Both the position numbers and the translations under genes were made by a program. Under the pieces are notes generated by a model that saw only the letters and a list, made by a program, of their open reading frames with translations, did not search any database and was not told where the DNA came from. 43,350 nt of DNA from Planctomycetota bacterium (GTDB lineage Bacteria > Planctomycetota > Phycisphaerae > Phycisphaerales > UBA1924): contig JAFEBN010000006.1 in assembly GCA_018242645.1 (NCBI GenBank), forward strand, positions 1 to 43,350, read 5' to 3'. Of the stretch, positions 8,278 through 19,414 are shown piece after piece. Within the stretch, counting starts at the first letter, position 1. Every line of letters starts with the position of its first letter.

Positions 8278-9873
8278 TTGACCAGCAAACCGCAAACCAA
8301 GAACCCTCTCGCCGGCCCCGCAATCGAGGGAGATGTCGTCCCGGTCATCGATTTCGGGGGCCAGACCGCGCAATTAATCACCCGTCGCATCCGCGATGCG
8401 GGCGTCTACTCCGTCCTGGTCGCTCCCACCATCACCCCTGCCGAACTCCGCAAGCTCGCCCCGAAGGGCATCGTGCTCTCCGGCGGCCCCTCCAGCGTGT
8501 ACGAACCGGGCGCGCCCACCATCGATCCCGCGATCTTTGACATGGGCATCCCGATCCTGGGCATCTGTTACGGCATGCAGCTCGCGGCGCACCTGCTCGG
8601 GGCCAAGGTGGATCCCGGCCAGCATCGTGAGTTCGGACGCGCCACGGTCGGCATCACCGATCGCACCGACCTCTTTGCCCTGCTCCCCGAGAAAATGACC
8701 GTGTGGATGTCGCACGGGGACCAGGTGTTCGACGGCGAGAAGGCCCACTTCGAAACGCTGGCTTCCACGCCCACCTGCCCGTTTGCCGCGGTTCGCAGCC
8801 GCACGGGCAACCGTCGCTTCTACGGCGTGCAATTCCACCCGGAAGTCACCCATACACCGCACGGATCCGAGATCCTCCAGAATTTCCTGCTCAACATCTG
8901 CGGCTGCCGCAACACCTGGCGGATGACCGAGTTTGCAAAGGCCGCCGCCGATCGCGTGCAGAAGCAGGTCGGTTCGAGCCATGTCGTCTGCGGGCTGTCA
9001 GGGGGCGTTGATTCCTCGGTTGCCGCCGCACTCATACACAAGGCCATCGGCTCGCAGCTCACGTGCGTCTTCGTCGATACCGGCCTGCTCCGCAAGGGCG
9101 AACGCGAACTGGTCGAAACGACCTTCCGCGACCACTTCCGCATGGACCTTCGCGTCGTGGACGCGTCGCGGGACTTTTTGAGCGATCTGGCCGGCGTGAG
9201 CGACCCGCAGGAAAAACGCAGGCGCATCGGACACCGGTTCATCGAGGTCTTCAAGCAGGCATCCCGCGATATCAAGGATGCGCATTTCCTCGCGCAGGGC
9301 ACGCTCTATCCCGATGTCATCGAATCCGGACAGGGGCACGCGGGTCAGTCCGCCGGGATCAAGCTGCACCACAACGTCGGGGGCCTGCCGGAGCAACTCG
9401 GCTTCGAACTTGTCGAGCCGCTCCGCGACCTGTTCAAGGACGAAGTGCGCAAGCTTGGCGAGGTGCTGGGCTTGCCCGATCAGATCATCTGGCGCCACCC
9501 GTTCCCGGGCCCGGGTCTGGCGGTACGTGTGCTCGGTGAAGTCTCCGAGCCCAAGCTCGAAATTCTCCGCGAGTGCGACGAGATCGTGCTCGAAGAGATC
9601 ATCGCCGCCAACCTGTATCGCAAAACCAGCCAAGTGTTCGCGGTGTTGCTGCCCGTGCAGTCGGTGGGCGTGATGGGCGATGGGCGCACCTACGACTTCT
9701 GCGTTGCGGTTCGCGCCGTGGAAACGCAGGATTTCATGTCCGCCGACTGGGTACGACTGCCCTACGAAGTTCTGGGAGCGATCAGCAGCCGGATCATCAA
9801 CGAAGTCCGTGGTGTCAATCGGGTGGTCTATGACATCTCCAGCAAGCCGCCGGCGACAATCGAGTGGGAATGA
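8278..9873 (+). CDS. guaA: GMP synthase (glutamine-hydrolysing)
   Basis: 531 residues. Converts XMP to GMP with ATP and glutamine in purine synthesis. The start is TTG at 8278, supported by AGGAAGGA at 8263-8270. The class-I glutamine amidotransferase domain (about 20-205) has nucleophile Cys97 in GICYGMQ and the His/Glu dyad in QFHPEVTHT. The ATP pyrophosphatase domain follows with the PP-loop SGGVDSS near 240. The C-terminal dimerisation part ends with the family's KPPATIEWE. All catalytic motifs are intact. The end overlaps the next gene by 44 nt if that gene uses its ATG. Confidence 0.97.
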
Positions 9874-10432
9874 CGCGATCGAGTCGGGCCCGCTGGTCTA
9901 CCTCCGCCGCCCGCGAGCGGAAGACCGACCCGAGTGGATCGCGCTTCGCGAGAGCAGTCTCGACCATCTGCTGCGCTGGGAGCCCAGACAGAAGATCCGA
10001 TCCGAAGCCGAGCGCTGGGAAACGTTCTTCGGCACCAGCGATTCCGAGGAGCGAAAGCGTTTCCTCATCTTTCGCCACGAGGACGGCGCCATGGTGGGTT
10101 ACGTGGGTCTTAACGGCATCCGCCACGGCGCTCTTCTGGGGTGCGACCTCGGCTACTGGATCGGCCGGCCATTCACCCGGCGCGGCTATATGACCGAGGG
10201 CCTCCTGCTCGCGATCCGCCACGCCTTTCAACAGCTCAAACTGCACCGCGTGGAGGCGAATATTCAGCCCGTCAATGCGGCATCCATTGGTGTCGTGAAA
10301 AAAGCCGGGCTGCGCTTCGAGGGCGTCGCGCTGCGCTTCCTGCAGATCGACGGGAAATGGTGCGACCACGAGCGCTGGGCGATGACCGTGGAAGAGTGGA
10401 AAGACCCGTTTGCGCGGGGCCGGAAGGCGTAA
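9830..10432 (+). CDS. GNAT acetyltransferase, RimJ/RimL-like
   Basis: 200 residues if the ATG at 9830 inside guaA is used; no ATG, GTG or TTG occurs between it and the conserved start of the domain ([15 protein letters not shown]). The N-acetyltransferase fold of the RimJ/RimL type is clear: [18 protein letters not shown] (acetyl-CoA-binding strand and loop), the helix [21 protein letters not shown], and [17 protein letters not shown]. These enzymes acetylate protein N-termini or small amines; the substrate is unknown. It is tightly coupled to guaA. It is the last core gene before the island, and the left 41-bp repeat begins 45 nt after its stop. Confidence 0.86.
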
Positions 10433-10476
10433 CTGCCCGGTCGGGAAATCCCCTTTGGTGAATCCAAAACGAAAAC

Positions 10477-10517
10477 GGCGGACTCCACTTTCTGGAATCC
10501 GCCGCAAAAGCGGAGAG
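10477..10517. repeat. Left 41-bp direct repeat, candidate att site
   Basis: Matches 18601-18641 at 37 of 41 positions in the same orientation. It contains an 11-bp inverted repeat (GGCGGACTCCA / TGGAATCCGCC, one mismatch) and ends with GCGGAGAG, the same 8 nt with which the right copy enters the tRNA-Ser 3' end. An A-rich run (10466-10475) on its left would give a U-tract on the minus strand, yet no minus-strand gene lies just upstream. That fits a displaced tRNA 3' end plus terminator left by integration. The alternative is a dispersed terminator-like repeat. Confidence 0.65.
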
Positions 10518-10762
10518 CTGATCACTTGTAAGGAAACGTCTTGCAAGAGCAACTGCAATTTGATTGCAAAGGCCGATGTGTCATCGATTCGAATCGCCCC
10601 ACGCCCTGCAATTTCCTTTATGTAAAGGACTTGCGCGTTATCGCCCCGCGGACCCCCGACAAGTCGGGAAGACAGTCCAAATACGTCCGATAACACGCTT
10701 GCGCCTTTGCGATCAGTCGCGGCCACTCCGCTCCTGCGCCATGGTCCCATCCGCGCCTTCCA

Positions 10763-10826
10763 CCCCCCCACCCCCTATCCCCCACCCCTCACCCCTCACC
10801 CCTCACCCCGCACCCCGCACCCCCCA
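10763..10826. repeat. C-rich tract with CACCCC(T/G) heptamer tandem repeat
   Basis: Six consecutive 7-bp units run from 10783 to 10824 (three CACCCCT, two CACCCCG, one CACCCCC), preceded by further C5-C7 runs from 10763. The minus strand therefore carries at least eight closely spaced runs of four or more G, a textbook G-quadruplex-forming pattern, and the plus strand is i-motif-like. It is not coding. Confidence 0.85.
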
Positions 10827-11220
10827 CGCCAACTCTTGGGACCCTTCGCACGAAAGGATGGCCACGACCACACGCCTTGTTCCTCCTCGCCAAGGTGGTC
10901 GAGGGGGACGCTTGTTCGCGTCGGTCGTGGGCGGAGTCTGTCGTACAGGCGCTGACGCTTGCGGCCGTGCCGTTGCATCGCCGGACTGATCGCACGAAAC
11001 CCAGCTTTGCCCCGCGAGGGAAACGCCTCGGCCCTGATGCTCCGGCGTTCTCATCGGAGCCCGCGGAACGGGATTCTGCAAGCCGGACCCTTTCCCCGGA
11101 CGACCGGGACGACACATGCAAACCCGCCACCCCCCACGGCGCCCGATGCGTTCACGCATACGACAACTCAGAGTCCGCCACTTTCACATTTGGACGCTGT
11201 TGTAGTGGTTCAGCCGTCTG

Positions 11221-11239
11221 TGGACAACTTATCCACAGC
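11221..11239. promoter_or_regulatory. Two facing DnaA-box-like 9-mers
   Basis: TTATCCACA (11231-11239) equals the classical DnaA box. The complement of 11221-11229 is TTGTCCACA, one base away from it. They face each other with a single base between, inside a near-perfect 21-bp palindrome (11220-11240). The pair is ~145 nt upstream of the methyltransferase start. It could be a replication-initiation or DnaA-regulated site of the element. No dnaA, dnaN or parAB genes are nearby. Confidence 0.55.
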
Positions 11240-11356
11240 GGCAGAAAACCAGCGTCTCGATGTTGACCCCCTCCAACAAATGCCTACGGTGCGCAAGCGT
11301 GGGGGGCGTATCTCGTTGCTGTCGTAACAAAGGGAAACAAGAGAGGGAGGTATCGC

Positions 11357-11443
11357 ATGTTCACGCAAAGGAGTTCGCGCATTGAACGTTCAACGAGTTG
11401 CGATCGATCGCATCAAGCCCGCCGTATACAACCCGCGTCTTGA
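11357..11443 (+). CDS. Possible 28-residue leader peptide
   Basis: An ATG at 11357 follows GAGGGAGG with ideal spacing and opens a 28-codon frame rich in Arg and Ser, closed by TGA at 11441-11443. It overlaps the start region of the methyltransferase gene, whose TTG is at 11382, in another frame. It could act as a translated leader that controls access to the downstream TTG, or it could be chance. There is no homology information. Confidence 0.25.
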   Translation: MFTQRSSRIERSTSCDRSHQARRIQPAS

Positions 11444-12809
11444 CCTCAAACCCGGCGACCCTGAATACGAAAAACTCAAGCGCAGCCTGAGCGAGTACGG
11501 ACTGGTCGAGCCGCTCGTCTGGAACGAGCGCACCGGCAACCTGGTTGGGGGACACCAGCGATTCAAGGTTTTGCTGTCCACCGGCGCGACCCAGGTCGAC
11601 GTCAGCGTGGTCGATCTGTCACCGCAGCGCGAGAAGGCGCTCAACCTCGCGCTCAACAAGATCGGCGGGGATTGGGACTCGAAAAAACTCGCGGCGTTGC
11701 TGGACGAGATGGTCCGTCTCGACAACCTGGATGTGACGCTGACGGGATTCGACCTCCCCGAGATCGACGATCTGATCGCGCGGCAACTGCTGGCGACCGA
11801 GCACGACGAGTCGTTTGACGTCGAAGCCGCGCTGGCCCAGGCCGGCCCGGCAGTGACCCGACCGGGCGATTTGATCCTCCTCGGCACCGATTCGCGCACG
11901 CAGCACCGTCTCTTGTGCGGCGACAGCACGGACCCCCACCACGTCCGGCGGCTGATGAACGGCCAGAAGGCCTCGCTCTTTGCCACCGATCCGCCGTACC
12001 TCGTGGACTACAACGGCACCAACCACCCGGGCACGAGCCGAGCGGACGTGCTGCGAAAGAACAAGGACTGGTCGGGCACGTACGGCGAACGCTGGGGATG
12101 GGACGAGTTTGAAGCCAACAAGGAGCTGTACGCCAAGTTCATCGCGGTCGCCGTTGCCGAAGCGATCCACGAGAACGCGGCGTGGTATTGCTGGCACGCG
12201 TCGAGACGCCAGGCCATGCTGGAGGCCGCATGGGAAGCGCACGGCGCCTTTGTCCATCAGCAGATCATCTGGAACAAGAACCGCGGCATCCTCACGCGCT
12301 CCTGGTACTCCTGGCAGCACGAGCCCTGCCTCTTCGGCTGGAAGCGCGGCCAGAAGCCCTTCAAGGCCGACGATGCGGCGTTCCTCACCAGCGTCTGGGA
12401 CGTCCCCACGCTCGCCACCGGCGATGAGCGCCCCGACCACCCCACCCCCAAGCCGCTGGCGCTCTTCGAGATTCCGATGAAGCAGCACACCCGCGGCGGG
12501 GATGTCTGCTACGAGCCTTTCGCGGGTTCGGGGACGCAGATCATCGCCGCGCAGCGCCTCGGACGCCGCTGCTACGCCCTCGAGCTTTCCCCGGTGTATT
12601 GCGACCTCATCGTGCGGAGGTTCATCGCGTTCGCGGGGCCTTCGGCGGTCGCTCCGGAGCTTGCCGAGAAGTACGCGCTGCCCCGCGCAAAGGAGGCGAT
12701 CGCCTTGACCGAGCCGAAGACCCCATCCCCGCCGCGCTCTTCGCCGCCGGTGCCCGAGAGCTTGTCCGCACGTTCCGCCGAAGGCAAGGAGGCGGTGCAT
12801 GGTGATTGA
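11382..12809 (+). CDS. ParB-like/DNA methyltransferase fusion, phage type
   Basis: 475 residues from a TTG at 11382, backed by AAAGGAG eight bases upstream. Residues 1-95 form a ParB/Srx-like domain with GGHQR at 56-60, where ParB proteins have GERR. From ~160 a beta-class DNA methyltransferase follows: motif IV DPPY at 203-206 precedes motif I FAGSGT near 380, the order of beta-class N6-adenine or N4-cytosine enzymes, with the terminal RCYALELSPVYCDLIV typical of them. Such fusions commonly sit beside terminases in phages and methylate phage DNA before packaging. The last 30 residues are Pro/Ser-rich. It overlaps the next gene by 11 nt. All motifs look intact. Confidence 0.9.
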   Translation: MNVQRVAIDRIKPAVYNPRLDLKPGDPEYEKLKRSLSEYGLVEPLVWNERTGNLVGGHQRFKVLLSTGATQVDVSVVDLSPQREKALNLALNKIGGDWDSKKLAALLDEMVRLDNLDVTLTGFDLPEIDDLIARQLLATEHDESFDVEAALAQAGPAVTRPGDLILLGTDSRTQHRLLCGDSTDPHHVRRLMNGQKASLFATDPPYLVDYNGTNHPGTSRADVLRKNKDWSGTYGERWGWDEFEANKELYAKFIAVAVAEAIHENAAWYCWHASRRQAMLEAAWEAHGAFVHQQIIWNKNRGILTRSWYSWQHEPCLFGWKRGQKPFKADDAAFLTSVWDVPTLATGDERPDHPTPKPLALFEIPMKQHTRGGDVCYEPFAGSGTQIIAAQRLGRRCYALELSPVYCDLIVRRFIAFAGPSAVAPELAEKYALPRAKEAIALTEPKTPSPPRSSPPVPESLSARSAEGKEAVHGD

Positions 12810-13461
12810 AAACAGTGACGGCGGCCGCTCGGCGATCGCGCTCCTGCGAGACATTCAAGCGGGCATCCTGGGAGGAAGCAGCCTCGCCGTTGCCGACCGG
12901 CGGCGAATCGTCGAGCATCTCAACCTCGAGGGATACTCGGTTCAGGAGATCGCGGAGGTGCTCAAGATCTCCGACCGAACGATTACCCGTGATCGCACGG
13001 CCATCCGCGAGCAGAACGCGATCAAGGCCGATCCGAAGCTGGTCGGACAAGCGGTCGGAAATATGGTCGCACAGGCGGAAGCGTCGGTGGCGCGGTTGCG
13101 GCGGATCGCCCGCGACAAGTCAACCCCGGCCTCCGCCCGCGTCGAGGCCGAAGTCGGGGCGTGGCGAGTCACGCTCGAATGCACGCAGTCGCTGCAGAAG
13201 CTCGGCTATTTGCCCACCGCGCCGCAGCAGATCCAGGGGCAGTTTGTCACAGCCTCGTTCACGGGCGACCAGCTCGCCGAACTGCAGCAAACGCGACAGG
13301 AACTGCAACGACTGAAGGACATCGCTGTGGACGAATCCTCCGTGCGTGCGCTCGACGCAACTCTTGGCGAGGTCACGGGGGCCATCGTGCTGGCCGAAGC
13401 ACGCCAAAGGGCGGCCGAGATCGTCGAGTCGCGGAAGGAAGGAGCGACCGATGCCGACTGA
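12799..13461 (+). CDS. Small-terminase-like HTH protein
   Basis: 220 residues. The N-terminal part contains a helix-turn-helix (about 45-75: GYSVQEIAEVLKISDRTITRD), followed by a helical central region and a C-terminal coiled-coil-like stretch rich in Gln, Glu and Leu (about 155-215). This layout, a DNA-binding HTH plus oligomerisation helices directly before a large terminase, matches phage small terminase subunits. It overlaps the methyltransferase end by 11 nt and the terminase start by 11 nt. Sequence identity to a specific TerS family is not recognised, so the call rests on architecture and position. Confidence 0.65.
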   Translation: MVIENSDGGRSAIALLRDIQAGILGGSSLAVADRRRIVEHLNLEGYSVQEIAEVLKISDRTITRDRTAIREQNAIKADPKLVGQAVGNMVAQAEASVARLRRIARDKSTPASARVEAEVGAWRVTLECTQSLQKLGYLPTAPQQIQGQFVTASFTGDQLAELQQTRQELQRLKDIAVDESSVRALDATLGEVTGAIVLAEARQRAAEIVESRKEGATDAD

Positions 13462-15106
13462 AGGCCCTGCGCAATCACTCTCGAATGTTCGCCGATCCAT
13501 CGGCGCGGAAAGCATCCTTCAGTTCATCAACACGTATCTTCCTTCCTACCGCACCTCTCCGTTCTCGCGCATGCACGAGGAGGTGGCGACGCTACTCGAG
13601 GACGCGACCAAGAACCGCGGCTCGCTCCTGGCAATCGCCGCCCCTCGCGGACACGCCAAGAGCACTCTTGTGACGCTGGCACTGGTTCTCTGGTGCTTGT
13701 GCTACAAGAAGGAACGCTACATCGCGATCGTCTCGGGTTCGGCGGAGCTCGCGACGACGCTGCTGGCGAGCGTAAAGAAGGAGCTGGAGTCGAACGTCCG
13801 ACTGCGTGAGGATTTTCCCGAAGCCTGCGGCAATCCTCCCACGCTCAAGCCGGGTGCCTGGCGCAAGGACCAGATCCTCACCGTGGATGGACGCATGGTC
13901 AGCGCGCACGGACAGGGCGGTCAACTTCGAGGCCGGCGCAACCGCCAGGATCGACCGGGTCTGATCATCTGCGACGATCTCGAGAGCGATCTTCTGGTCC
14001 GGAGCAGCGAGTTGCGTCAAGGACTCGAGACCTGGTTCAACGGGACGCTTCTCAAGATGGGCACCGGGTCGACCAATGTCGTGGTGGTTGGAACCATTCT
14101 GCACCACGATTCGCTGCTGGCCAAGCTGACCGACCCGCGTCCCGGCAAGACCCCCGGATGGAAAAAAGCCGTCTACCGCGCCGTTGAACAAGACGCGGAC
14201 CGCGCCGATCTTTGGGAACACTTCAACGCCGTCTACAACGGTCAGGAAACGGACGAACACGGCCGCAGCGGGCCCGAGGCCGCCACGGGGTTTTTCGAGA
14301 GCCGGAAGGAGGAAATGCTCAAGGGCTCCAAGGTATTGTGGCCGGAGCGCGAGGACTATGCGGCGCTGATGATCATGAAAACCAGGGAAGGCCGCGCCGC
14401 TTTCAGCGCGGAAAAGCAGAATCAGCCTCTGAGTCCCGAGGACGCGATCTTTCGTTCAGATGAGTTTGCGTTTTGGAGCGATCGATTCGCGAGCGAGCAG
14501 GAACTGCTGGCCTTCCTCGGGGACCGAGCCGAGTTTTACGGCGGTGTTGATCCCAGTCTCGGCAAGGCCGGCAAGAACCGCGATGACACCGCGATCGTGA
14601 CGATCGGTCGTGATTCACGGGACGGCCGGTTCTATGTGCTGGATGCTGACATCCGCAAGCGCAAGCCCTCGGAGATCATCGAGGCCCTGATCGAACTTCA
14701 TCGTTTCAGAGATTACCGCATGGTCGGAGTGGAGTCGGTTCAGTACCAGGAGTTCTTGGCGCAGGAGCTTCAGGAGCGCAGCCGCAAGGCGGGTAGAGAG
14801 ATTCCCGTCTGCCAAGTGCGATCGGTCTCGGACAAACTCGGCCGCATTCAAAGATTGCAGCCACTGGTGACCAGCGGCGGAATCCAGTTCAGCCGAAAGC
14901 ACGTGAAACTCTTGGAACAGATGGAGCAGTTCCCCATGGCCGCACATGACGACGGCCCGGACGCGCTGGAGATCGCGATCAAGACCGCCCAAGACTTGGG
15001 CGGAACTCAACCCTTTGTCGAGTTTATCGACCTTGACGAGACAGACGATGTGGCGGGAGATGAGAGGATGTGGAAGGATGTAACAGGTCCTTATGGGATC
15101 CAGTAG
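13451..15106 (+). CDS. Phage terminase large subunit
   Basis: 551 residues from the ATG at 13451, preceded by GGAAGGAG; an in-frame longer start lies inside the previous gene. ATPase domain: Walker A variant APRGHAKST at 64-72, Walker B LIICDDLE at 171-178, and coupling region VVVVGTILHHD near 209-219. RNase-H-like nuclease domain: Asp367 in GGVDPSLG, Asp378/379 in RDDTAIV, VESVQYQ, and C-terminal DDGPDALEIA. These are the metal-ligand positions of headful-packaging nucleases. Both enzymatic domains appear intact. No portal, protease or capsid gene follows; the next 180 nt are empty and then gene direction reverses. So the packaging motor is an orphan here. Confidence 0.9.
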   Translation: MPTEGPAQSLSNVRRSIGAESILQFINTYLPSYRTSPFSRMHEEVATLLEDATKNRGSLLAIAAPRGHAKSTLVTLALVLWCLCYKKERYIAIVSGSAELATTLLASVKKELESNVRLREDFPEACGNPPTLKPGAWRKDQILTVDGRMVSAHGQGGQLRGRRNRQDRPGLIICDDLESDLLVRSSELRQGLETWFNGTLLKMGTGSTNVVVVGTILHHDSLLAKLTDPRPGKTPGWKKAVYRAVEQDADRADLWEHFNAVYNGQETDEHGRSGPEAATGFFESRKEEMLKGSKVLWPEREDYAALMIMKTREGRAAFSAEKQNQPLSPEDAIFRSDEFAFWSDRFASEQELLAFLGDRAEFYGGVDPSLGKAGKNRDDTAIVTIGRDSRDGRFYVLDADIRKRKPSEIIEALIELHRFRDYRMVGVESVQYQEFLAQELQERSRKAGREIPVCQVRSVSDKLGRIQRLQPLVTSGGIQFSRKHVKLLEQMEQFPMAAHDDGPDALEIAIKTAQDLGGTQPFVEFIDLDETDDVAGDERMWKDVTGPYGIQ

Positions 15107-15286
15107 GCGCGACTTCAGCTGTTTTGCTCCATGTGCGAAACTGTCCGATCAGATGGGTGTCTCGAACTCGGCATGATGTCGGCGGCCGTTAGTAGGTCGG
15201 TCCGACCAAAGAGAGCGGAGAAACGAAGTTGGACGGCCGCTGGTGCACCCCACGCCTTACGGGCGGATCGACTCGCGCCGTGGCGA

Positions 15287-16480
15287 TTATCCGAGACCCA
15301 GAATCCAACCCTCCACTGCTGCCGTCGCTCGATCCTCGGGGGAGATGTCGGGGTTCAGGAACTCCGTGAGACCGCCATCAACATCCGCCCGCCGCAGCCA
15401 CTCCGCCACGCTCCAGGCGTCATGCTGATCTTGTGTGCGGTCGGCCCTCGGCAACGACCGGCTCCACAGCGACGGGTAGGCCTCGGCGATGACCGAGCGA
15501 CCCAGAGTCGGCGTCCATCCGTCGAACGGCCAGAACTGGATGCGGCCGCCGAGCCGCTCGCGGATGTACCTCAGCCAGGGCAGGCCCGCGTGGGTCGACT
15601 TGGCGACCGAACCCTGCACATCGAAATGGAACACCGACTTGGCACCGCCCGCTCGTACTTCAGTGAGACGCCTCCAGCGGCGGTCGCCCATGCGCTCCGC
15701 GCCCCGCCCGACATTCCCATCGCGCACGAAGTCGACGTATGTGTTGTCGTCGTCGGTCGGCCAGTGATCGTGAAAGTCGTCGAGGAACGCGTGCCAGTCG
15801 CGCCGTAGGCCGTGCCGCTCGAAGTACTTCATCGGGAAGGAGAACCCGTGGTCGATGCCGACGATGGCGGGCTCGTTCTCCGAGAGCCGGGCGACAAGCC
15901 ACTCCGCAACGCCGCGGCGGGTCCAGTGCTTCTTCAGCCCTTGCGACGGCCGCACCTCGACCGGAGCGGCGCTGCCCTCCGCCATGTAGACCCGGAGCCC
16001 GGGCAGGCTCGACGTCGGCGTCTGTGCGCCGGAGTAGTCGATGCCGATGTAGCGGGCGAAGAGTGCGCGAGAGGTCTCTCCTCTGGGCTTCCGCACCAAT
16101 GACCCGTCACGAGCCGCGAGCAGTTCTGCCGCCCGACGCACAATGGCCGTCAGGTGTCCTCCCTCGAATGCCCCCAAGAGATGCCCTTCGCAAAAGCGAT
16201 CCTGCCGAAGGTGAGCCGTGAGGAGCCGAGCCAATGTCAGTGTGTCGGCCGAGGCGACGTTCGCAGGGTCGTTCACGAGCATCTGGCACTCCGGCCCGTG
16301 CGCCCACTGTGACCAGTCGAAGTCTGTGAGCACCCATCCCCAGCGATACGCCACATCATTCAGGGCGTTGATCGCGGTATCTGGATCTACGCCGGAGGTC
16401 CTGAACACAGGGAGCAGCATGGCAAGGCCACGCAGACGCTCGTCCCATGCAGTCGACGTTGGATCGGGTCGTTCGGCCAC
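15287..16480 (-). CDS. DUF6508 plus RNase-H-fold (DUF429-like) fusion
   Basis: 397 residues from a GTG at 16480. Residues 1-125 resemble DUF6508, a small domain of unknown function, with DRFCEGHLLGAFEGGHLTA. From ~143 a second domain begins with YIGIDYSGAQ and has IVGIDHGFSFP and later an AEAYPSLW segment. Asp-containing first strands and a late Pro-Ser motif resemble the RNase-H-fold DUF429 predicted nucleases. Neither function is established. The gene is intact, opposite in direction to the terminase and next to degraded helicase/nuclease pieces, so it is probably accessory cargo. Domain calls are from memory of family patterns. Confidence 0.7.
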   Translation of the reverse strand: MAERPDPTSTAWDERLRGLAMLLPVFRTSGVDPDTAINALNDVAYRWGWVLTDFDWSQWAHGPECQMLVNDPANVASADTLTLARLLTAHLRQDRFCEGHLLGAFEGGHLTAIVRRAAELLAARDGSLVRKPRGETSRALFARYIGIDYSGAQTPTSSLPGLRVYMAEGSAAPVEVRPSQGLKKHWTRRGVAEWLVARLSENEPAIVGIDHGFSFPMKYFERHGLRRDWHAFLDDFHDHWPTDDDNTYVDFVRDGNVGRGAERMGDRRWRRLTEVRAGGAKSVFHFDVQGSVAKSTHAGLPWLRYIRERLGGRIQFWPFDGWTPTLGRSVIAEAYPSLWSRSLPRADRTQDQHDAWSVAEWLRRADVDGGLTEFLNPDISPEDRATAAVEGWILGLG

Positions 16481-16577
16481 GGCTAGAGCCTAGGGCACCC
16501 CTCACATATACTCGCCCGGCAATATGATCAGCGTGTTCCGATGCCCACATATTGCTACAGCCGGATCGAGTGCTTGA

Positions 16578-16961
16578 TCCGATGCGATTACGACGATCAC
16601 CCACATCGAGCGCCGGGGCGACGACGTCGGGCAGTTCCGGACGAGCGAAGGACCGCTGTGTTCCTATTGCGAATACCAGCAGATTTGTCGAGCACGGAAC
16701 CACCTATATCAGGTGCACTTGATGCTAGAGAGCGATCTGGCCAAGGAACCCGCGGTTGCGTTTGTCGATCGGTGGGCCGAGCTCGAAGTCAAGCGGAAGC
16801 CCCGACAGAACGAGAAAGGCGATTTCGAGAAGCAGATTGAGGACATCCGGCAGGCGCTCGTGGCGATCTTCTGCCGCTCAGACCGATCGCCCTCGAGTAC
16901 GAGCACGGTGCCCTCGGCGTTGCCTACGAGAATGATCCAATCACCCCCGCTTGGGCAATAG
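16578..16961 (+). pseudogene. Remnant of a PD-(D/E)XK (RecB/AddB-type) nuclease
   Basis: An open frame of 127 codons after a TGA at 16575 has no proper start. Its first 100 residues look like the C-terminus of an AddB/Cas4-type PD-(D/E)XK nuclease: EGPLCSYCEYQQICRARN carries the CxxCx5C cysteines that hold an iron-sulfur cluster, followed by a helical tail ending near QIEDIRQALVAI. The catalytic half is missing upstream. After ~16860 the frame becomes Ser/Thr/Pro-rich and probably no longer original. It overlaps the end of the antisense helicase frame. A 5'-truncated relic is the best reading. Confidence 0.6.
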
Positions 16962-18010
16962 GGGTCGTACTCGTCCCAATTGAGCACTTTGGAGCTCACA
17001 CGCAAAGCTGTTAGGAATGGGGACTCGCGCTGCTTCTCAGTGACAACGACGAGTTTGGAGATGGCGCGAGAGCATGCGACGTAGAACAGCCTGCGCTCGT
17101 CGTCGATCAGGCTGCTTGGCGTATCTCCGAAGACCCGCCCGAACACCCAGTCCGGATGAACTTTGGGAAACCGCCGCTCCACTGCGTCCAGCACGACTAC
17201 CACGTCTGCCTCGCGGCCCTTGTACGCATGGACCGTTCCGACATGTAGCTGCTCCTTTTCCGAGTCAGTCAACCCGTCGCGAATGAGCATCGCCAATCGC
17301 GCCAGATCGTCTTTCGGATAGTGCCCCTCATCCGGCATACATACCTGGTATGGAAGATATCGCTGCCGTGCCAGCAAAGCGATGGACTTGCCTGCTTTGA
17401 GTGGCGCACGCACGATCCTTCGGATTGCAGGCGTAATGGTGTCGCCTTGCCAGTGATGCGCCTCGGCTGCGCTCGGACGAAGTACTGACAAATCCGCCAG
17501 AAGCACCTCTCCGATCGGAGCATCCGCGCGAGCTTTGGCGGGTTCTCCCTTGTTCTCCATGATTCGGTTACCTGCATCGACGACCGCACGCGCAGAGCGG
17601 TGGTTTGTGGTAATGGCCAGTTCTTTGGTCCGCTCGAAGCGCGTTGCGAACTCGCGGAAGAAGCTCAAGTTCGAACCCGCGAAGCCATTGATCGCTTGCC
17701 AGTCATCTCCGACGCAGAACACCCGAATACTCGGATTGCGAGCACGGATTGCGTTCAAAAGCAGATCGAACAGTGGCGAAAAGTCCTGGTACTCGTCAAC
17801 CATCACGAAACTCAGCTGCGTGAGGTCGCCAGCGCCTGACTTGCGCTCGAACGCCGTCGTGCCACTTCTCACCAATTGCGCTGCGTTTTCAAGCAGTCCG
17901 TCGAAATCTTCCTGGTTCTCGGCTTTGAGCCGATTCAGGTACGCGCGGTAGGCCTCGCCCGCGATCGAGAGTACGTCGAGCTCAATGTCATTCAGATAGT
18001 CATGCTCACG
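16709..18010 (-). pseudogene. 5'-truncated UvrD/Rep-type superfamily 1 helicase
   Basis: The open frame runs from 18343, but only the part after ~18010 (from REHDYLNDIELDV) looks like helicase; the first 110 codons are antisense to the recombinase fragment. Present: motif II VMVDEYQDFSPLF, motif III FCVGDDWQAINGFAGSN, motif IV region, motif V VGTVHAYKGREADVVVV and motif VI RLFYVACSRA. Missing: the whole N-terminus with the Walker A GxGKT motif and motif Ia, so no ATP binding is expected. The frame's tail (below ~16890) is antisense to the nuclease remnant and doubtful. The break coincides with the recombinase fragment, suggesting insertion or deletion there. Confidence 0.75.
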
Positions 18011-18011
18011 G

Positions 18012-18377
18012 ATGCGTCGGTTCGATGGCCGCAGGATGCTGGTGTCGCCTGAGGGCGACGCCTTGATTACTCCGGTCGAAGCAGACGGACGACCGATGCC
18101 CCGGCCGCACTTGGTGCTTGCCATCGGGCAGGCCTTTGCGTGGCACCGGGAACTGATGCGGACCGGAGAGTCGATCGAGTCGCTGGCGCGTCGGATAAAG
18201 GTGGCCGACTCCCACATCCACCGGCAACTGGCACTGACCCACCTCAGCCCCTCGATTCTCTCCGAAGCTTTGAGCGGCCGACTCCGATCGCGGATCACAA
18301 TTTCCGATTTGGTGGCGGCTGGGCAACAGCTCGCGTGGTCCAAGCAGGTTGCTGCGATCGGCCCAAAGCAGGGCTAA
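18012..18377 (+). pseudogene. C-terminal fragment of a recombinase-type protein
   Basis: 121 codons from an ATG at 18012 without a ribosome binding site. The pattern HLVLAIGQAFAWHRELM, then SIESLARRIKVADSHIHRQLALTHLSP and ILSEALSG resembles the C-terminal helical region that follows the catalytic domain in large serine recombinases, or small stand-alone relatives found beside them. The catalytic resolvase domain is absent, so it is either a relic or an accessory protein. It lies 220 nt from the right repeat and the tRNA-Ser gene, where an integrase/recombinase of an integrated element is expected. Family recognition is from memory and moderate. Confidence 0.5.
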
Positions 18378-18587
18378 ACCCCAAGCTGGTTCGCTTCCCG
18401 ACCGCTGCTTACTGGCGACCGGTGACCTCACGGTTTGGCTCGCTCCAGAGGCGGCATGTCGAATCTCCACACTGGAAAGTTGGCCTCCACAGACTTTTTC
18501 CCATGTTTGTCCGGATTCGAGGCGTGTGTGTGGACTTCCCCAGCCCGGCTTGCGGGATTCTCGCAGATTCCCACGCCAAATCCCGCC

Positions 18588-18629
18588 AAAAAGAAAAAGC
18601 GGCGGACTCCAGTCTCTGGAATCCGCCGC
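18588..18629 (-). terminator. Intrinsic terminator of tRNA-Ser(CGA)
   Basis: Stem with arms 18599-18611 and 18617-18629 (one mismatch) and a 5-nt loop, followed on the minus strand by CTTTTTCTTTTT. It lies 6 nt beyond the tRNA 3' end. The same stem is part of the 41-bp repeat. Confidence 0.8.
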
Positions 18630-18641
18630 GGAAGCGGAGAG
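18601..18641. repeat. Right 41-bp direct repeat, candidate att site
   Basis: Partner of 10477-10517 (4 mismatches, no gaps). Its last 7 nt are inside the tRNA-Ser(CGA) acceptor stem. The order from right to left is intact tRNA, repeat/terminator, island, second repeat, core gene. That is the order expected when an element integrates into a tRNA 3' end and restores it. Confidence 0.65.
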
Positions 18642-18723
18642 GGGGAGATTCGAACTCCCGAGAACCCTTACGAGCTCTGCCGGTTTTCGAAACCGGTCCA
18701 TTCAACCGCTCTGGCACCTCTCC
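18635..18723 (-). tRNA. tRNA-Ser(CGA)
   Basis: 89 nt. The acceptor stem GGAGAGG/CCTCTCC pairs fully and the discriminator is G. The anticodon stem CCGGT/ACCGG encloses the loop TTCGAAA, with anticodon CGA reading UCG codons. A long variable arm, typical of class-II tRNA, and a T-arm with TTCGAATC are present. CCA is not encoded. The 3' end abuts the repeat and terminator. Confidence 0.95.
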
Positions 18724-18772: not shown

Positions 18773-19414
18773 TCATTTCCGGCGAGAGGCGGATTTCGGG
18801 CGATCCAGAAGCGTCGTGAGAGCTCCGAGAAGCTCTTCCGGCTCGCTCATGCGACCTTCCCCCACCGCCCGGCACGCCTGCCAGCCGCTGCCCGGACCGG
18901 CGAGGTAGAACCCGTCCTCCACCAGTTGCTTCACGTTCCGCTGCGTGCTGTTCTGGGCCCACATCACTTCGTTCATGGCCGGCGCCAGCAGCACGGGCGT
19001 GCGTGCCCGATCGACTGCGGCAAGGATCAGCGAAACCACATCGTCCGTGCGACCCGTCGCGAGCTTGGCGAGAAAATCCATCGTCGCGGGCGCCACGATC
19101 GCCAGGTCCGCCGCCTTCGCAAGCGATACATGCTGCGGGTCCTGCGACTCCACGTGCTCCCACGCGCTGGTATACACGTGCCGGCCGGACAGCGCCTGGA
19201 AAGTCAGCGGGCCTACAAAGTGCGTGGCCGATTCGGTCATCGCCACCGTGACTTCCGCCCCGGCCTGCGCCAGGCGGCTCACCAATGTGCAGGTCTTGTA
19301 CGCGGAGATCCCGCCGGTCACACCGACAAGGATGCGCTTGCCGCGGAACAGCGTGCCATCGGCGGCCGCAACGGGCTGCTGATCGGAGGACGCGGTTTGG
19401 CGATTTCGTGCCAA
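18773..19414 (-). CDS. coaC: Phosphopantothenoylcysteine decarboxylase (CoaC)
   Basis: 213 residues from a TTG at 19414. Flavoprotein that decarboxylates 4'-phosphopantothenoylcysteine in coenzyme A synthesis. Seen: the FMN-binding start RILVGVTGGISAYK, a HVSLAKAADLAIVAPATMDFLAKLATG segment shown here in outline only, APAMNEVMW with the substrate-binding Asn, and the active-site Cys in GWQACRAVGEGRMSEP. The protein ends there, so the CoaB synthetase half of a usual CoaBC (about 400 aa) is absent and must be encoded elsewhere. It lies 20 nt downstream of rpoZ on the same strand, a common rpoZ-coaBC arrangement. The start is uncertain within ~20 residues. Confidence 0.9.
   Translation of the reverse strand: MARNRQTASSDQQPVAAADGTLFRGKRILVGVTGGISAYKTCTLVSRLAQAGAEVTVAMTESATHFVGPLTFQALSGRHVYTSAWEHVESQDPQHVSLAKAADLAIVAPATMDFLAKLATGRTDDVVSLILAAVDRARTPVLLAPAMNEVMWAQNSTQRNVKQLVEDGFYLAGPGSGWQACRAVGEGRMSEPEELLGALTTLLDRPKSASRRK

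Follow-up and report, generated by a model that had tools for sequence, protein, structure and literature searches.

The analyzed window, i.e., the whole stretch of 43,350 nt from contig JAFEBN010000006.1 (assembly GCA_018242645.1), carries an island of about 8 kb between guaA-GNAT and tRNA-Ser(CGA)-coaBC. The features of this locus are as follows (window coordinates, strand, description):

8278..9873, +, guaA, left chromosomal flank; syntenic with GNAT and tRNA-Ser(CGA)-coaBC in congeners G002, G004 and G006
9869..10432, +, GNAT acetyltransferase, left chromosomal flank; Pfam Acetyltransf_3
10472..10517, +, left att-like copy: hairpin (minus-strand sense) and 8 nt of tRNA-Ser 3′ end; 41/46 identity
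10518..11381, no strand, left element end without convincing gene; 0.87 kb from left repeat to methyltransferase
11382..12809, +, ParB-like/N4-N6 DNA methyltransferase, intact; N6_N4_Mtase 2.8e-16, phrog_498 9e-116
12799..13461, +, small-terminase-like HTH protein (TerS), intact; HTH domain, same position in relatives
13451..15106, +, terminase large subunit (TerL), intact; phrog_38 6e-103, Terminase_6C, TIGR01630 above cut-off
15287..16480, −, DUF6508-containing protein, cargo; Pfam DUF6508 4e-25
17030..18022, −, UvrD/Rep-type helicase without N-terminal part, cargo relic; Pfam UvrD-helicase from profile position 147
17955..18377, +, C-terminal ~136 aa of a large serine recombinase; phrog_14161, aligned to the G131 recombinase
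18596..18641, +, right att-like copy: tRNA terminator and 8 nt of tRNA-Ser 3′ end; repeat identity, folding
18634..18723, −, tRNA-Ser(CGA), target gene, intact; ARAGORN
18773..19414, −, coaBC (dfp), decarboxylase part, right chromosomal flank; TIGR00521 similarity, congener synteny

Gene content and ends of the island

The accessory content listed by an initial sequence-only reading was largely recovered, with a methyltransferase, TerS and TerL, a recombinase fragment and a helicase of the UvrD type that is truncated, but the "nuclease relic" that it also reported has no Pfam match. The methyltransferase combines a ParB-like N-terminus with an N4/N6 methyltransferase domain and is 37-66% identical in elements of the family described below, in which TerS is 34-43% identical and keeps its position. 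The helicase relic is GajB-like according to PADLOC (GajB 2.6e-29). In an alignment with the recombinase of a relative (G131, 600 aa), the recombinase relic corresponds to residues 465-599 and its homology is limited to these residues; the catalytic domain is thus absent from the window copy and therefore the element can neither excise with its own enzyme nor mobilize itself. The truncated helicase and recombinase genes abut at about 17955-18022 and are divergently transcribed, so that one deletion could remove both 5′ ends. The G+C content of the island is not set apart from its surroundings. At the DNA level, its left end does not resemble those of relatives; this non-coding end includes an inverted pair of DnaA-box-like sequences, CTGTGGACAACTTATCCACAG, at 11218-11238. 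A second TerL, 35% identical and possibly belonging to another element, was found elsewhere in the same genome (C231:1236-2684).

The flanking repeats, first described as 41 bp matching at 37 positions, are real and in the same orientation but slightly longer, with 46 nt in each copy. The next-best match to the 46-mer in the window reaches 25/46, in agreement with the earlier statement that the window holds no third copy. The genome-wide search that had been suggested gave the same picture: neither a 124-nt query nor a search for the hairpin pattern revealed any copy besides these two in the genome (3.4 Mb in 261 contigs, 83% complete). As initially noticed, the right copy overlaps the end of tRNA-Ser(CGA), the last 8 nt of which (GCGGAGAG) it includes, the remainder being the terminator hairpin of this tRNA, and the left copy consists of the same 8 nt and a hairpin, without a tRNA. 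The two copies fold at −28.5 and −27.3 kcal/mol (the latter for the left one), with z about −4, and both form strong hairpins that are terminator-like on the minus strand only. Since none of the predicted genes of the element reads leftward into the left hairpin, the left copy is an orphan tRNA tail.

The insertion site in congeners

Comparison with relatives lacking the island, which the sequence-only reading had proposed as a check, revealed an empty site in three congeners. In these genomes, guaA-GNAT lies directly beside tRNA-Ser(CGA)-coaBC, with a gap of 20 bp in G002, 16 bp in G004 and 15 bp in G006, and GNAT is 79-81% identical to that of the window. In an unrooted FastTree tree of guaA, GNAT and coaBC, the genome carrying the window is placed next to a clade made of these three congeners and G007. 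The empty sites show that the 8-kb stretch is an insertion at the 3′ end of tRNA-Ser(CGA); its limits are exactly GNAT, next to the left copy, and the tRNA, which carries the right one. The locus shows, besides empty sites in relatives, an intact tRNA at one end and a displaced 3′ fragment in the same orientation at the other, as in tRNA-targeted islands. A chance arrangement of dispersed terminator repeats around unrelated accessory genes is extremely improbable: both copies are indeed strong terminator hairpins, but only two exist in this 83%-complete assembly, both end in the same 8 nt of tRNA, no gene reads leftward into the left one and relatives have empty sites. A dispersed terminator family was accordingly rejected. 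Jointly, these features are best explained by a decayed integrative element located at about 10518-18641, at the 3′ end of tRNA-Ser(CGA), a reading that we consider highly likely.

The same gap between GNAT and the tRNA is occupied by other genes in G007 (6.5 kb) and G003 (9.2 kb), around which repeats of the type found in the window were not detected. As read from ORFs, these genes encode a transporter, a TPP enzyme and a hydrolase in G007 and MoxR/DUF58/Bat-type proteins in G003. With such other genes in the gap, this site is either a permissive one or one that has been used more than once. Two other genomes, G001 and G005, are rearranged at this locus. The hairpin is absent from the three congeners with an empty site, and a related one accompanies this tRNA in G007, where no element is present. 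Because of the latter, the hairpin found beside the tRNA in the window may be host-borne; it may also be element-borne.

A serine recombinase family convergent to tRNA-Ser genes

Homologues of TerL and of the recombinase were searched for in 201 genomes of the order Phycisphaerales. Several contigs exhibit the same gene order as the window: methyltransferase-TerS-TerL, variable genes, in many cases for anti-phage defense, often a DUF2924 gene, a recombinase of ~600 aa and a tRNA-Ser gene on the opposite strand. Among 25 loci with the recombinase C-terminus, 20 (including the window) have a convergent tRNA-Ser past the recombinase, at 184-388 bp from its stop codon in 18 cases (257 bp in the window) and at 1209 bp in the two others (G002 and G003). 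A second scan, on GTDB species genomes, found 32 loci, nearly all in Phycisphaerales; 30 of them have 500 bp or more of downstream sequence, and in 23 of these 30 a tRNA-Ser follows at a distance of 176-388 bp, it being noted that the sets of 25 and 30 loci overlap. The neighboring tRNA-Ser genes of the family have CGA, GGA, GCT or TGA anticodons. The intact recombinase of G131 carries Resolvase (PF00239, 3e-40) and Recombinase (PF07508, 2e-16) domains and matches the structures of the TP901-1 and phiC31 integrases. Apparent UvrD matches in relatives were discarded, as they are antisense readings of the recombinase C-terminus and not helicases.

As a crude control, we used 30 loci from relatives encoding a Pfam Recombinase domain (reading frames were chosen automatically and some are wrong). 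A tRNA-Ser is in reach in two of the four loci with the C-terminus of the family, compared to one of the 26 without it, three others of these 26 having a tRNA-Pro or tRNA-Glu. These counts suggest that the C-terminal domain of the recombinase goes with tRNA-Ser. Overall, homology and gene order show that the relic of the window belongs to a family of large serine recombinases convergent to tRNA-Ser genes, which makes the "recombinase fragment" of the first description a serine-type one.

Large serine recombinases devoid of the family C-terminus were also observed against tRNA 3′ ends at five loci (L061:8568-10334, L212, L190, L216 and L208), the tRNAs being Ser-GCT, Ser-CGA, Pro-CGG (twice) and Glu-CTC; at L061, the recombinase ORF continues into the tRNA-Ser. 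Serine recombinases at tRNA genes may thus be common in the phylum Planctomycetota. A recombinase of the family lies beside a tRNA-Ser(TGA) on a contig labelled as a Gammaproteobacteria MAG (L168), reflecting mis-binning or a wider host range. Six loci (L163, L172, L173, L175, L183 and L184) carry a methyltransferase 3-7 kb from the recombinase and no recognizable TerL, and are possibly smaller elements.

Among nine elements, that of the window and those of eight intact relatives, the left att copy was recognized in two, the window and G097 elements; in the other seven, no tRNA 3′-end match of useful length was found upstream of the methyltransferase gene. The left repeat of G097, about 1.0 kb before the methyltransferase gene, has a terminator hairpin and ends after exactly the same 8 tRNA nt as the window repeat. 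The sharing of so few tRNA bases, which had been noted as a weak point, is therefore a feature that recurs. Beyond the repeat, ~160 nt of the left copy of G097 closely match the right arm of G131-type elements, as in a tandem or attP-like junction, which suggests that one tRNA was used for integration more than once; this left end likely has a tandem or inverted history. Another tRNA-Ser faces the G097 repeat (L126), its 3′ end being about 190 bp away. Furthermore, the elements of G131 and G197, located at tRNA-Ser(GCT), share their hairpin with G097, where the tRNA is tRNA-Ser(GGA); in these elements, the terminator is apparently carried along. Empty tRNA-Ser(GGA) sites gave no limits for the element of G002, as no shared flank was found in the piece of G002 searched; the downstream side of this tRNA differs in every congener.

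These observations would fit two or more successive integrations at one tRNA, the left copy being the right-end scar of an earlier element. For the window, such a history is rather unlikely: the 39 bp between GNAT and the left copy do not significantly match the right arm (6% of shuffles are as good), which led us to reject this flank as a right-arm scar, and the hairpin of G007, found at the same tRNA without an element, is maybe host-borne. Nevertheless, the 46-nt identity exceeds the crossover core of serine integrases and includes the terminator, and therefore the two copies may not mark one event. The initial proposal that the repeats are attL and attR of one element thus holds as regards an insertion, the recombinase family lying at tRNA-Ser in the same geometry, whereas the two copies may or may not date from one integration.

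The insertion at tRNA-Ser was very probably made by a large serine recombinase. An intact recombinase would act on an attP site in which the tRNA 3′ end is duplicated and join it to the corresponding end of the tRNA-Ser of the host, recombination being predicted inside AAGCGGAGAG. Integration would rebuild the tRNA, which would keep a terminator, and would leave the displaced tRNA tail and terminator at the far end. A later deletion then probably fused the divergent helicase and recombinase genes with the loss of both 5′ parts; by this deletion, the element would now be fixed in the chromosome.

Terminase genes, cargo and comparison with known elements

Relatives of the window element carry the recombinase and TerS/TerL; in compact elements, TerL is separated from the recombinase by 1.5-7 kb. 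In the larger elements of G002, G097 and G197, this interval contains defense or metal-efflux genes: G002 encodes a DrmMI-like methylase together with a helicase of the DpdE/DISARM type, G097 has metal-efflux genes (read from sequence), and G197 encodes a Wadjet JetC protein, a CBASS cyclase and a SAVED-peptidase effector. In G109, the defense cargo stands left of the methyltransferase gene and comprises a ThiF/E1-like protein with JAB domain and DUF6527. A thymidylate kinase, a 5-hmdU DNA kinase (HMUDK_hel, 2e-109) and a thymidylate synthase are encoded in G131 (L115:8639-11384), and similar genes were seen in G097; judging from these domain matches, the trio of G131 is likely a thymine-hypermodification (DNA-base modification) cluster in a terminase-bearing island.

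Scans of part of the ORFs of the window and of the relatives read, including those with an intact recombinase, revealed no gene for a capsid, portal or tail protein. Consequently, the element resembles a satellite or cargo island more than a full prophage, and, as a refinement of the sequence-only reading, the family looks like terminase-bearing islands and not like whole prophages. We also considered an ordinary temperate prophage remnant that inserted at the tRNA and lost its structural genes by deletion. In its favor, methyltransferase-TerS-TerL genes are of phage type, with a TerL near the Mu-like/DMS3-type terminases, and the window is clearly deleted in part, since the N-terminus of the recombinase is lost. 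However, the relatives read with an intact recombinase also showed no capsid, portal or tail genes, the space where these could stand is short in the compact elements and filled by the cargo listed above in the larger ones, and a host-type P-type ATPase gene (read from sequence) lies directly left of the methyltransferase gene in G131, all of which makes this origin improbable.

The retention of TerS and TerL makes transfer by packaging plausible. Since the family keeps methyltransferase-TerS-TerL without virion genes, intact members might be packaged, in a satellite-like manner, in the particles of another phage, their cargo defending the host. A family of capsid-less terminase islands that insert at tRNA-Ser by serine recombinases and spread as satellites in phage particles, with the window as a decayed member, is therefore proposed tentatively, at a little under an even chance.

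SCC elements insert in rlmH and have no terminase. Like the window family, they are islands with variable cargo moved by large serine recombinases (Ccr), and a strong similarity to the CcrB NCBIfam model was detected (1e-42, yet far below its cut-off); the family differs from them by its terminase genes and by its insertion at tRNA-Ser and not in rlmH. Most phage satellites use tyrosine integrases. Satellites such as PICI, P4-like and cfPICI elements are small, have no or few virion genes, carry terminase genes in some cases and defense cargo, and insert site-specifically (PMC13376191, PMC9122126). The window family resembles them in these traits but differs by a large serine recombinase, by the presence of both TerS and TerL and by having no known helper. 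An Islander-type island has, like the element of the window, a tRNA at one end, a displaced tRNA fragment at the other and the island between them; the Islander definition restricts integrases to the tyrosine family and, in 2014, serine integrases were not known to target tRNA genes (PMC4383910). According to a 2011 article, serine recombinases at tRNA genes are rare, the examples named being mycobacterial AICEs in tRNA-Leu and phiRSM1 in tRNA-Ser (PMC3218068). These AICEs resemble the window family by a serine recombinase at a tRNA gene, but they are conjugative, use another tRNA and have no terminase module mentioned for them (PMC3218068). A precedent is provided by the Ralstonia filamentous phages phiRSM1 and phiRSM3, which integrate in reverse orientation at a serine tRNA 3′ end by means of a serine recombinase, with the core TGGCGGAGAGGGT, which shares GCGGAGAGGG with the right site of the window (PMC3816273). 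By its description, phiRSM is set apart: its Int is a small, resolvase/invertase-type enzyme of a 9-kb filamentous phage, whereas the window family combines a ~600-aa large serine recombinase with terminase genes of dsDNA phages. A recombinase clade tied to one tRNA family through four serine anticodons contrasts with the statements of both surveys (PMC4383910, PMC3218068).

A partial coverage of the literature gave no match to a published account of this family. What is new here is the large serine type of the recombinase, the tie of its family to tRNA-Ser across Phycisphaerales and the presence of terminase genes without virion genes, which raises the question of the role of a terminase in an element that has no capsid. 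The cargo shows that CBASS, Wadjet-type, DISARM/Dpd-type and metal-resistance genes are able to travel in this phylum. Planctomycetes have few integration tools, and this family offers naturally occurring large serine recombinases whose target is conserved and can be predicted, of use both in studies of target choice and in planctomycete genetics.
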